DNA of 64,000 nt from Ruminococcus flavefaciens AE3010 (GTDB taxonomy: Bacteria > Bacillota > Clostridia > Oscillospirales > Ruminococcaceae). The stretch covers positions 3,454,501-3,518,500 of the forward strand of contig NZ_JAGT01000001.1 in NCBI RefSeq assembly GCF_000526795.1, read 5' to 3'. Numbering within the stretch: position 1 is the first letter of the stretch; each line of letters begins with the position of its first letter. The translations under genes were made by a program, and so were the position numbers. This document shows, piece by piece, positions 52,336 to 56,336 of this stretch. The notes under the pieces are model-generated. The model worked only from the letters and a program-made list of their open reading frames with translations. It made no database searches and was not told where the DNA came from.

Positions 52336-52564
52336 GCCCAGAGCGGGCGGATTTTATCCGCCCGCGAGCCCTTAGCCGTCAGCTTGTAGTGGCGGCGTCC
52401 CGCCGCCCGCATCTTATGAATGAATTTCAAATGACACACTGTAGGGGACGGCGTCCTCGACGTCCCGCGAGTGAGTAGTGTAGGGAACGGCGCCCTCGCC
52501 GTTCCGCGCCTTACAATACAACTAACATGAAACAAAACGTAGGGGCGGATATTATCCGCCCGTA
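52336..52564. repeat. Hairpin-rich intergenic repeat block
   Basis: Between fba and the small membrane gene no open frame of note is seen. Five hairpins occur: GCGGGCGGAT/ATCCGCCCGC (52343-52365), GGCGGC/GCCGCC (near 52391), GGGACG/CGTCCC (near 52447), GGAACGGCG/CGCCGTTCC (near 52484) and GGGCGGAT/ATCCGCCC (near 52544-52562). Most are preceded by GTAG(G/T)G. The unit is shared with 43827-44041 and 52987-53036 and is probably a dispersed palindromic family. Confidence 0.7.
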
Positions 52565-52986: not shown

Positions 52987-53036
52987 GGGCGGATAGTATC
53001 CGCCCCTACTTAGTTCTTAGCTCTTAGTTCTTAGTT
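52987..53036. repeat. Short repeat copy at the end of murD
   Basis: GGGCGGAT AGT ATCCGCCC (about 52988-53006) plus TTAGTTCTTAGCTCTTAG simple repeats. On the reverse strand the hairpin is followed by TTTTC and may stop murD transcription. The last codons of MurD (ELRTKN) lie inside the AGAACTAAG repeats. Confidence 0.65.
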
Positions 53037-54376
53037 CTAAGCTCGGCAACCAGCTTCTTGAAGGCGTCGCCGCGCTCCTCAAAGTTCTTGAAGATACCGT
53101 AGCTTGCTGCCGCAGGGGACATAACGCAGCTCATACCCTCGGGAGTTATGTCCGCAGCAAGCTTGACAGCTCCTTCAAGGTGGTCAGCGTAGTGAACGCG
53201 CTCCTTTTTCTTGAAGCCGTCACTGGCAAGTATCATATCGTAGACCCTCTTGCCCGAAGCTTCCATGCATATGACGCGGATATCGAAGCCTGCAAGGAAG
53301 TCAACAAGGGGAGCATAGTCTATACCTCTGTCCATACCGCCGATGAGGACAGTACCTGCATCGGGAACGCTCTGCACAGCTGAAATAGCCGTAGCGCAGG
53401 CGGTTGAGATAGAGTCGTCATACCAGCGTATACCCCGTACCGTGTCCACATATTCCAGTCTGTGAGCCAGCGGAGAGAATGTACACAGCGCCTTTGTGAA
53501 GTCCTCCTCACGAATGAAGAGGGTGGTGATATAGTAAGCCACAGCGATGTTGTAGTGGTTGTGAACGCCCAGGAGCTTTACCTTATCGGTGGGGATAACG
53601 TAGGGCTCGACGCAGTGCACCGTGCCATTGCTGACATAAACGTCGGCGTCGCAGTCCTTATCCGAGATAGTATAAGTGTTCCATGAGATAGGCTCACCGG
53701 GAGCGATATCCGAATTTATCAGCAGAACATCGTTCTCCTGCTGGTGGAGGTAAATGTTCTTCTTGGCGTTGTAGTAGTTCTCCATAGTGCCGTAGTGGTC
53801 CAGGTGCTCCTCGTAGAGATTGAGGAATACAGCGTATTTGGGAGATACGGTCATATATTCAAGCTGGTGGCAGGAGAGCTCGCAGACCACGATAGTCTCC
53901 TCTTTCATGTCGTCGGCGATATCGAAAACAGGGATACCGATATTGCCTGCGATACGGCAGTCCACGCCGCTTTCGCTGAGAACATGGTAAATAAGGGAAG
54001 TGACTGTGCTTTTGCCCTTTGTACCCGTGATACCGATAATCTGCTCGCGGAAGCACTCAAAGAACACCTGAGTTTCGCAGGTTATCATGCATTTCAGCTC
54101 AGAAGCGGGCTTTTCAAGAACGATGCCGGGACTCTTGAACACCATATCGAATCGGTCAAGGCAGTCCTGATAGTCCTTTCCGCAGATAAGCTCAACATTT
54201 TCGGGAAGCTCGTTTGCTTTACGGTCAACGGGATTGAGGTCAGCAATGGCTACAGCCTTTGGCGAGCAGTACTTTTGCAGCATTTTATATGTGGACTTGC
54301 CCTCTCTGCCGAAGCCGAGAATGCATACAGTCTTGTTTTCAGTGTATGTTTTTAAATATTCACCGAATGACATCAT
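53024..54376 (-). CDS. murD: UDP-MurNAc-L-Ala:glutamate ligase, probable MurD2-type
   Basis: The protein has 450 residues of the Mur ligase family. It has ILGFGREGKSTYKML (N-terminal UDP-MurNAc domain), IIGITGTKGKSTVTSLIYHV (ATP loop, near residue 115), CELSCHQLEYM and LNLYEEHLDHYGTM in the central domain, and YDDSISTACATAISAVQSV in the C-terminal domain. MurD normally adds D-Glu. Here the gene overlaps by 4 nt (ATGA) the stop of a MurL-type gene. In Xanthomonas that pair (MurD2 plus MurL) adds L-Glu and then epimerises it, so L-Glu specificity is inferred from context. The start at 54376 has GGAG 8 nt upstream. The C-terminus enters an intergenic repeat. Confidence 0.85.
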   Translation of the reverse strand: MMSFGEYLKTYTENKTVCILGFGREGKSTYKMLQKYCSPKAVAIADLNPVDRKANELPENVELICGKDYQDCLDRFDMVFKSPGIVLEKPASELKCMITCETQVFFECFREQIIGITGTKGKSTVTSLIYHVLSESGVDCRIAGNIGIPVFDIADDMKEETIVVCELSCHQLEYMTVSPKYAVFLNLYEEHLDHYGTMENYYNAKKNIYLHQQENDVLLINSDIAPGEPISWNTYTISDKDCDADVYVSNGTVHCVEPYVIPTDKVKLLGVHNHYNIAVAYYITTLFIREEDFTKALCTFSPLAHRLEYVDTVRGIRWYDDSISTACATAISAVQSVPDAGTVLIGGMDRGIDYAPLVDFLAGFDIRVICMEASGKRVYDMILASDGFKKKERVHYADHLEGAVKLAADITPEGMSCVMSPAAASYGIFKNFEERGDAFKKLVAELRTKN

Positions 54377-55755
54377 AAAAGGTTCTCCATTTCTTTTCTG
54401 AGTATGGCTTTGAATTCGTCGGGAAGCAGATTCTGCTCGTTGAACGAGCTGCAGCACTCATTGTTGAGGGCGTCGATAGATTCGGGATAGTAAAGTCCGC
54501 GTTCCTTGTATTCTCTGAACAGGAGAGGGAGCTCCTCACCGTTCTGCTCAAGCCTTCTTATAGCCAGAGATACAGCCAGATTCACTTCGTCGATACTGCC
54601 CACGCACTCAAATGGCTTGTGCTCGGACTGTCCTATGAGCTCGATGAAGTACTCCATCATTTTGCTGTCATTGAGCATATCCCTGCCGAATATCTTTATG
54701 AGCTCCTCCATAGTGAGGAATGGGGAGAGTATCAGGCACACGAACAGGCACTTGGGGCATTCGCCGCACCATATATCGGGAGATACCTTGCTGCCCAGGT
54801 TACAGCTCCTGAATACGGGAAGATACTTGCGGTGGGATACGAACATCTTTGCTATCTGGAACTCTGCAAGAGGGCGCAGGAAGCTGAAATAGTACTGACC
54901 CGTGCGGAGGTATTTCTCCTCATAATCATGGAAGTCCTGCTCAAACTCGAAGCTCTTGGAGTACTGATGATTGACGTCCTGACCGACAACAGTGCTCTCA
55001 TTGGCACTGGATTCGTTGGAGAGAACGATGTATTTCAGCTCGTTGAGGTAGGCTGTTATCTCTGCTGAGAAAGCAACTATAGCCGAAAAGGGCGTATGGC
55101 CGTTGATAAAGCCCTTGTCGTTGAGAGCCACCAGCGAGCGGTCAAAGTGGCGCTGAGCTATGATAAGGGCATCGTCGTCAAGACCTGCCTTTCTGACGGT
55201 CTCGGTTATGGAACGGCGCTTGTTTATGGAGTAGCACAGGCACTTCATGCCTGATTTTACCAGTGTCTCCAGCGTAAGTGCCGAGTCCTTTCCGCCGCCT
55301 ATAGGCACAAGACAGCCTCTTGGCTGACGTGCTGTCTCCGTTAGGGAGCTGTTGTAGCTGCCTGCCGAAACTATATTCACAAAGGTATCGGGATCGGCTG
55401 ATATGCCGTTTACGAAAAAGAGCTCGCCCAGTCCCATGAACCACAGCTTCTTCCACCATTGCTTCTGCTCCTCATTTAGCTCGCCGCACTCTGCGCGGAA
55501 CTGGGGAGAGCAGGTGGCTTTCCAGTAGCTTACAGCCTCAGCCATACCCAGTGAGAAAGCAAGTCTCTCAAAGGTGAGATCTCCCTTTACGGAGAAGTTC
55601 TCGGGCTTGCGGAAGCTCCAGCTGGGGCGGAACTCCGCCAGATCCGTAATGGAAAACTCGTAGCCGATCTCAACAGTGTTTTTTGTTTCATTCACATGAT
55701 ATGCTTTATATACGAAAGAGGGGTATTTCTCTCGGTATTCTTCATATTTACCCAT
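54373..55755 (-). CDS. murL: Probable UDP-MurNAc-L-Ala-L-Glu epimerase
   Basis: The protein has 460 residues, about the length of Xanthomonas MurL. It has an ATP-pyrophosphatase-like loop (VPIGGGKDSALTLETL, near residue 150), the conserved INGHTPFSAIVAFSAEITAY, then LSNESSANESTVVGQDVNHQ and the cysteine cluster WCGECPKCLFVCLILSPF near residue 328. Known MurL converts the terminal L-Glu of the nucleotide precursor to D-Glu, using ATP and Mg. Overlap with the MurD ligase gene and location in a cell-wall region support this. The same family is sometimes annotated only as a hypothetical or PP-loop protein. The start at 55755 follows GGAG. It lies 23 nt behind the DtxR-type regulator. Confidence 0.75.
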   Translation of the reverse strand: MGKYEEYREKYPSFVYKAYHVNETKNTVEIGYEFSITDLAEFRPSWSFRKPENFSVKGDLTFERLAFSLGMAEAVSYWKATCSPQFRAECGELNEEQKQWWKKLWFMGLGELFFVNGISADPDTFVNIVSAGSYNSSLTETARQPRGCLVPIGGGKDSALTLETLVKSGMKCLCYSINKRRSITETVRKAGLDDDALIIAQRHFDRSLVALNDKGFINGHTPFSAIVAFSAEITAYLNELKYIVLSNESSANESTVVGQDVNHQYSKSFEFEQDFHDYEEKYLRTGQYYFSFLRPLAEFQIAKMFVSHRKYLPVFRSCNLGSKVSPDIWCGECPKCLFVCLILSPFLTMEELIKIFGRDMLNDSKMMEYFIELIGQSEHKPFECVGSIDEVNLAVSLAIRRLEQNGEELPLLFREYKERGLYYPESIDALNNECCSSFNEQNLLPDEFKAILRKEMENLL

Positions 55756-55778
55756 AGTTCATCTCCGTAGCTTCTGTA

Positions 55779-56156
55779 TTATTTTTTCTCTGAAAGCTTT
55801 CTGTAATGTGATTTGAGCATAGCAAAGGTCTCGTCGGATATGTCGTGCTCCACCTTGCAGGCGTCCTCGGAAGCAACATCGCGGCTTACGCCGAGAAGAA
55901 TGAACAGCTCGGTGAGAACATTATGTCTGTCGTAGATGCGTTCTGCAACATGTCTGCCTGCGTCGGTGAGACGAATGTGGTTATCGTCGTCAACTGTGAC
56001 AAGTCCCTCGTCCTTCATCTTTTTAAGTATTATAGACACAGTAGGACGGGAATATCCCAGATAAGAGCAGATATCTATAGCATGGACATCGGGCTGTTTC
56101 TGTGAGAGGATAAGTATAGTTTCAAGGTAATTTTCAACTGCTTCTGTAATAGCCAT
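55779..56156 (-). CDS. DtxR/MntR family metal-dependent transcriptional regulator
   Basis: The protein has 125 residues: an N-terminal winged helix (AITEAVENYLETILILSQ, then ICSYLGYSRPTVSIILKKM) and the dimerisation/metal domain (RHNVLTELFILLGVSRDVAS, EDACKVEHDIS). Ligand-like residues His (in DRHNV), Glu and His (in KVEHD) are conserved. The residue corresponding to B. subtilis MntR Asp8 appears to be Asn9. There is no C-terminal SH3 domain, so MntR-like. It likely represses metal (Mn or Fe) uptake. It may also be co-transcribed with the murL and murD genes directly downstream. Confidence 0.85.
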   Translation of the reverse strand: MAITEAVENYLETILILSQKQPDVHAIDICSYLGYSRPTVSIILKKMKDEGLVTVDDDNHIRLTDAGRHVAERIYDRHNVLTELFILLGVSRDVASEDACKVEHDISDETFAMLKSHYRKLSEKK

Positions 56157-56179: not shown

Positions 56180-56225
56180 ATAGAAACCGTAAACAAATAT
56201 ATATACTATATTATATCATAAAAGA
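56180..56225 (-). promoter_or_regulatory. Probable promoter of the regulator-murL-murD operon
   Basis: Reverse strand shows TATAAT about 50 nt ahead of the start (near 56210) with TTGCTA about 17 nt upstream. AT-rich surroundings make the exact boxes uncertain. Confidence 0.5.
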
Positions 56226-56302
56226 GGGAAAATAGCAACACTAACGGAAATAATTTACCGTGATTATTATCTCAGCCGCCATAAAGGCGGCGCGGCTCCG
56301 CG

Positions 56303-56336
56303 CAAAAAAACACTTCCGCAGCTGATCGGAAGTGTT
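56303..56336 (-). terminator. Terminator of the M23 peptidase gene
   Basis: Reverse strand AACACTTCCG, ATCAGCTG loop, CGGAAGTGTT, then TTTTTT. 14 nt beyond the stop at 56351. Confidence 0.88.

Follow-up and report, generated by a model that had tools for sequence, protein, structure and literature searches.

The 64,000-nucleotide (nt) stretch of Ruminococcus flavefaciens AE3010 DNA analysed here (the window) carries a gene for a MurL-type epimerase followed by a gene for a MurD-type ligase, and this MurL-MurD2 pair very probably provides the only route in early peptidoglycan synthesis to the D-glutamate (D-Glu) at position 2 in this Ruminococcus. In this route, MurD2 would add L-Glu and MurL would then epimerise it, the two reactions being assigned by analogy with the enzymes of Xanthomonas, Micromonospora, and Salinispora. 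The high probability of the L-Glu route follows from the lack of a match to MurI or to a D-amino-acid transaminase (Dat), the MurD2 residues of the ligase, its grouping with X. sacchari MurD2, the exclusion of MurI from MurL genomes, and the linkage and fusion of both genes. The replacement of MurI by MurD2 and MurL had been proposed in a preliminary description of the window and withstood the genome-wide and residue tests; its occurrence "in a Gram-positive" is not novel, as Micromonospora and Salinispora MurL-MurD2 pairs have been confirmed in vitro (PMC8788868).

The ligase, the probable epimerase, and the genome around them

The preliminary description had named murI, a D-amino acid transaminase, and a second murD as genes to look for in the whole genome (3.7 Mb, three contigs, 98.89% complete); the search returned none of them, for murD none above the cut-off. 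TIGR00067, the MurI model, had no match in this genome, nor had PF01177, which matched in 10 of 14 control genomes. The only class-IV aminotransferase (Aminotran_4) is an IlvE (492.9 bits with NF009897, 422.1 with TIGR01123) that scored at most 47.5 bits with the Dat models (cut-off 320). One MurD lies above the cut-off and five weaker matches are found at four other places, two of which are close to the window and look like MurC and MurE.

The window MurD scores 312.5 bits with TIGR01087 (cut-off 211.95). Glu197 and Arg358 of Xanthomonas oryzae MurD2, equivalent to Asp182 and Lys348 of Escherichia coli MurD, matter for the use of L-Glu, and changing both residues yields a D-Glu ligase (PMC8788868). 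To compare these positions (E. coli numbering), 99 MurL-paired MurDs (from 97 loci, two of which repeat another, the window, and X. sacchari MurD2) were aligned with E. coli MurD and 70 MurDs encoded in MurL-negative members of the order, 61 of them from genomes with a MurI above the cut-off and one from G239, a genome with a MurL fragment. Position 348 is Arg in 99/99 MurL-paired MurDs and Lys in 70/70 of the others, including the nine aligned MurDs from genomes with neither MurL nor MurI. Position 182 is Glu in 84 and Asp in 15 of the MurL-paired sequences versus Asn in 65, Glu in four, and Asp in one of the MurL-negative set. The window MurD has Glu at 182 (E190) and Arg at 348 (R350), the residue pair of MurD2 at the substrate positions at which an alignment had been suggested. 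Rather than an intact murI and a ligase with residues accepting D-Glu only, the genome presents no MurI match together with Glu182 and Arg348. A FastTree phylogeny splits MurL-paired from MurL-negative MurDs with a support of 1.0 and places X. sacchari MurD2, the sole Xanthomonas sequence, within the MurL-paired side. From residues and grouping we infer a murD2-type ligase adding L-Glu. Glu182 alone was rejected as a marker, since it occurs in four of the 70 MurL-negative MurDs and is replaced by Asp in 15 MurL-paired ones; K319 was rejected as well, the position being Ile in 98/99 MurL-paired and 69/70 MurL-negative MurDs.

The window MurL matches NF041275 with 235.7 bits (E 7.2e-70, residues 56-401). 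This is an equivalog model of Xanthomonadales MurL with a cut-off of 700, reached by X. sacchari MurL with 836.5 bits, so the window protein is not filed under it. Pfam gave no match to MurL at E 0.001. Of 83 near-invariant columns in an alignment of 104 rows (the window and 103 loci), 60 are retained in X. sacchari MurL, and the motifs GGGKDS, NHQ-SK, the cysteine motif, and KPFxCVG are retained as well. By full-length similarity, shared invariant residues, and linkage to a MurD2-type ligase, the window protein is a MurL epimerase in the wide sense, with its activity predicted.

MurL has no known conserved domain, requires ATP and Mg2+, yields AMP, and may adenylate its substrate (PMC8788868, PMC5808125). 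This published adenylation hypothesis would fit a QueC-like PP-loop domain, and two motifs point to one: GGGKDS (residues 153-158) and C-x11-C-x2-C-x2-C (318-336), the residues of which are invariant in both MurL alignments. A MurL profile matches TtuA (PH0300), which we take to be a PP-loop enzyme, at E 6.3e-4 over 44 positions. Of 52 MurL members, three matched QueC (7-cyano-7-deazaguanine synthase, a PP-loop ATPase; best E 0.01) and 49 matched DUF6395 (best E 1.2e-4), with which the window MurL reaches 12 bits against a cut-off of 25. Compared with a profile of nine QueC sequences, six of which have the cysteine pattern, 170-176 columns align colinearly from the PP-loop to the downstream cysteine site with weak statistics (depending on direction, P 1.1e-4 or 3.1e-3 and a probability of 57% or 10%; control comparisons gave P 0.54 for MurL-MurD and 0.084 for MurD-QueC). 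Unlike QueC, MurL has about 145 further residues at its N-terminal end, and its substrate is a different one. Taken together, MurL probably holds a putative QueC-like adenylating domain, to which the sequence profiles lend weak support.

Two further MurL-like genes were noted in passing. A Pseudonocardia plasmid carries one (L180:4962-6362) with no annotated murD adjoining, which is altered at 15 positions where X. sacchari agrees with the 104 MurL rows. Another (L181:3893-5248; 41% identity over 99% of the query) lies on an unverified 8.9-kb faecal scaffold named "Bacteriophage sp.", which may be mislabelled bacterial DNA.

MurL and MurI across genomes

MurL and MurI are mutually exclusive. 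Within a sample of 247 genomes of the order, 24 have a full-length MurL; G239, with a 20.2-bit MurL fragment containing one internal stop, was excluded from this count. MurI above the cut-off is present in none of the 24 and in 197 of the 223 others (Fisher test on a table compiled by hand: p 9e-20 when counted by genome and 1.5e-8 when counted by genus, with 0/10 versus 108/124 genera). The named MurL loci number 80, the best of at least 581 stretches. Of the 50 genomes examined from this set, 14 show some match and one has a MurI above the cut-off. This single MurI, from a Ruminococcus metagenome-assembled genome (MAG), lies beside genes for POTRA and OmpH-like proteins, one and two in number (L267:2638-8162), so the MAG is probably contaminated by an outer-membrane organism. 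Of the other matches in the named set, a divergent racemase-like gene in G272 reaches 108 bits, and all the rest stay below 45 bits. As a separate observation, a divergent MurI-like gene of a MurL-positive genome (L268:4451-5296) stands directly behind a gene reading as D-Ala-D-Ala ligase; it may be decaying or serve another role.

A MurD gene follows MurL on the same strand at 97 of 103 loci (two repeat loci counted), which led to the rejection of a chance pairing. The gaps range from -37 to 174 nt, except at L115, where the MurL frame is interrupted. Two of the six remaining loci end within 700 nt; for three others (L226-L228) the genome encodes MurD elsewhere, in each case with Glu182 and Arg348. 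In three lineages MurL and MurD form a single reading frame (L049, L056, and L256, the last from another order), each fusion exceeding the cut-off of the MurD model and reaching 240-251 bits with the MurL model.

Several observations weigh against the L-Glu route. The window MurL lies far below the NF041275 cut-off and shares only 29% identity with its X. sacchari counterpart. Asp occupies position 182 in 15/99 MurL-paired MurDs, and position 319, whose Lys reportedly matters in the E. coli enzyme, is Ile in almost every member of both groups. One MurL genome, G248, the fourth of those with no MurD behind a MurL locus that does not end within 700 nt, has no MurD above the cut-off. Racemase-like matches below the MurI cut-off occur in 5/24 MurL genomes of the order sample and 13/50 of the named set. 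Finally, 26 of the 223 MurL-negative genomes likewise have no MurI above the cut-off, so that the absence of MurI alone is no proof of the L-Glu route. These genomes, with neither a full-length MurL nor an above-cut-off MurI (26/247), include G008, G023, G051, G103, G163, and G199.

Since those 26 genomes may have another source of D-Glu, and the substrate of the window MurD is assigned from sequence alone, an ordinary D-Glu ligase could also be envisaged, with MurL acting on another substrate and D-Glu supplied by the environment or by an unrecognised racemase, e.g. a bifunctional DapF such as the one that a Chlamydia paper names in its title (PMC5885031). Such an arrangement appears very unlikely, given a MurD with Glu182 and Arg348 that groups with X. 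sacchari MurD2, the linkage or fusion of MurL to MurD at nearly all loci, and a genome with no MurI or Dat match. The L-Glu route via MurD2 and MurL remains the preferred reading.

Locus layout and the DtxR-type regulator

The murL and murD genes lie behind a gene for a DtxR-type regulator (Table 1). The ORFs, their order, the 23-nt gap between dtxR and murL, and the 4-nt ATGA overlap of murL and murD are as first described; the ATG at 54376 is the likely start of murD.

Table 1. Features of the dtxR-murL-murD locus in the window, and MurL-MurD fusions at other loci (ORF, open reading frame; aa, amino acids)
Feature	Position	Strand	Basis or remark
Gene for the DtxR-type regulator (125 aa), first of the putative unit	55779-56156	-	PF02742 and PF01325 above cut-off
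murL-type gene, 460 aa	54373-55755	-	NF041275, E 7.2e-70
murD, 450 aa from ATG 54376 (ORF 53024-54457)	53024-54376	-	TIGR01087, 312.5 bits
ATGA shared by the murL stop and the murD start	54373-54376	-	4 nt
Promoter-like TTGCTA-17-TATAAT, TG before it, upstream of dtxR	56210-56238	-	best of 6 matches, 10/12 bases
Terminator-like hairpin after the upstream M23 peptidase gene	56309-56336	-	sequence scan
Terminator-like hairpin GGGCGGATA-TATCCGCCC, then TTTTC, behind murD	52987-53005	-	read from the letters; absent from the list of the scan
GGGKDS, MurL residues 153-158, PP-loop-like ATP site	55282-55299	-	invariant; aligns with TtuA and QueC
MurL C318-x11-C330-x2-C333-x2-C336, QueC-like four-cysteine site	54748-54804	-	invariant; aligned with QueC cysteines
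MurD E190 (E. coli D182, X. oryzae MurD2 E197)	53807-53809	-	alignment; role from PMC8788868
MurD R350 (E. coli K348, X. oryzae MurD2 R358)	53327-53329	-	alignment; role from PMC8788868
MurL-MurD fusion	L256:1975-5031		about 956 aa
MurL-MurD fusion	L049:5979-8534		about 851 aa
MurL-MurD fusion	L056:1524-4226		about 900 aa

The three genes look like one transcription unit, judging from the promoter-like site behind the upstream hairpin, the conserved -35, -10, and ribosome sites, and the close gene spacing. These three sites are the conserved parts of an alignment of dtxR upstream regions, inspected by eye (21 rows: the window and 20 loci). The number of promoter-like matches near dtxR is uninformative by itself, since six were found and shuffled sequences yield 5.5. 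Farther upstream on the same strand lie an M23 peptidase gene (Pfam) and then genes reading, by their ORF translations, as PBP2, mreD, mreC, and mreB. At the end of murD, CTAAGAACTAAG-like repeats were noticed, and two near-identical GGGCGGATA hairpins flank the 111-aa ORF, one per side (window 52987-53040 and 52543-52561). PADLOC returned no result.

With PF01325 and PF02742 both above the cut-off and the ligand-like residues N9, E12, H78, C100, E103, and H104 conserved in every covering row (20 or 21 of 21), the regulator is a member of the DtxR/MntR family, for which metal-dependent DNA binding is predicted; these positions are presumably the metal ligands of MntR/DtxR. The preliminary description had suggested a metal-linked control of precursor synthesis. 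What was found in its favour is a conserved gene order in one clade, and no conserved operator was seen by eye upstream of dtxR; such a control, while possible, thus found no further support. A dtxR-like gene directly precedes murL at all 20 named loci L069-L088 and at L046, a repeat of L078; L115 (MurL 68% identical), with only 2 nt upstream, was left outside this count. No dtxR-like ORF (phmmer, E 1e-5) was detected at the other 81 of the 103 loci, three of which hold less than 300 nt upstream. The dtxR upstream regions of the 21 rows, each of 230 nt at most, were inspected by eye and showed no conserved palindrome or operator.

These data bear on two explanations of the association. In the first, the DtxR-type protein senses Fe or Mn, controls murL-murD2, and ties precursor synthesis to the metal supply. 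The order dtxR-murL-murD, which is kept at the 20 loci though the other neighbours found in the window are mostly absent or on the opposite strand, is consistent with such a control, as are the ligand-like residues and the conserved promoter-like site. It nevertheless seems doubtful, in view of the many loci at which murL has no dtxR-like ORF before it and the lack of a visible palindrome; besides, the genome has a second PF01325 gene elsewhere, and the Mg2+ need of the enzymes calls for no Fe/Mn regulator. In the second, dtxR is simply co-transcribed, regulates distant genes, and owes its position to history. This account is rather probable, as the association is limited to one clade and no operator is visible, even if the persistence of the three-gene order over 20 genomes with changing neighbours speaks against it. 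The second DtxR-like gene of the genome (L254:1273-1659) is situated beside an ORF reading as CDP-alcohol phosphatidyltransferase.

Distribution, known systems, and significance

In a scan of one genome per species, at least 581 stretches that code for a relative were obtained among at least 589 pattern matches, a locus possibly counting repeatedly. The best 80 loci include ones from Ruminococcus, from Lachnospiraceae (Pseudobutyrivibrio xylanivorans being one of these), and from MAGs with the labels Erysipelotrichales and Bacilli; the closest of them belong to Ruminococcus flavefaciens and Ruminococcus MAGs, with MurLs 66-83% identical to that of the window. MurL is patchy and occurs mostly in the class of the window, as it was found in 17/393 genomes of a class sample and 1/398 of a phylum sample (in both, the genome itself included; in the latter it is the only one). 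A quick tree hints that the MurLs of the window's family fall into two clades; such a split would imply repeated acquisition.

Compared with X. oryzae MurD2 (XOO_1320) and MurL (XOO_1319), the window encodes the same Glu197/Arg358 equivalents in a genome that likewise has no MurI or Dat match (PMC8788868, PMC5808125). As in X. sacchari, murL precedes and overlaps murD2, the annotated overlap there being 20 nt. The window differs from the Xanthomonas pathway in that it belongs to Bacillota and its genes stand behind a dtxR gene, in that MurL is fused to MurD in some relatives, and in having Ala and Tyr at the Pro433 and Phe435 positions. With the canonical MurI and MurD of Clostridia, the window MurD shares the equivalents of H183, K198, and S415; it departs from them by the lack of MurI, by Arg in place of Lys at 348, by Glu at 182, where Asn is usual, and by its separate clade. 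Bacillota are not named as holders of MurL-MurD2 in the parts consulted of PMC8788868 or PMC5808125, and no report was found in the open-licence literature. The window thus very likely holds a pathway that is already known, here in a branch new to it, the Bacillota.

In its most extended form, the proposal would make MurL-MurD2 the sole D-Glu route of many Bacillota, established by repeated replacement of MurI, with MurL as a PP-loop relative of QueC with metal-bound cysteines that adenylates the alpha-carboxylate of Glu, fusions channelling the intermediate in several lineages, and a DtxR-type sensor providing a link to metal in the R. flavefaciens clade; that all of this holds together is unlikely.

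The fusions and the QueC-like motif ease the approach to the unexplained chemistry of MurL. Roseburia intestinalis appeared to have no murI, for which exogenous D-glutamate or an altered wall was suggested (PMC7478625), and MurL-MurD2 is a checkable candidate answer to this puzzle. A review restricts the L-Glu route to a comparatively small number of genera and regards it as a target for narrow-spectrum drugs (PMC8788868). As this Ruminococcus and scattered gut and rumen Clostridia likely obtain their D-Glu by this route, its inhibitors may also hit such commensals, and MurI inhibitors would presumably spare them.

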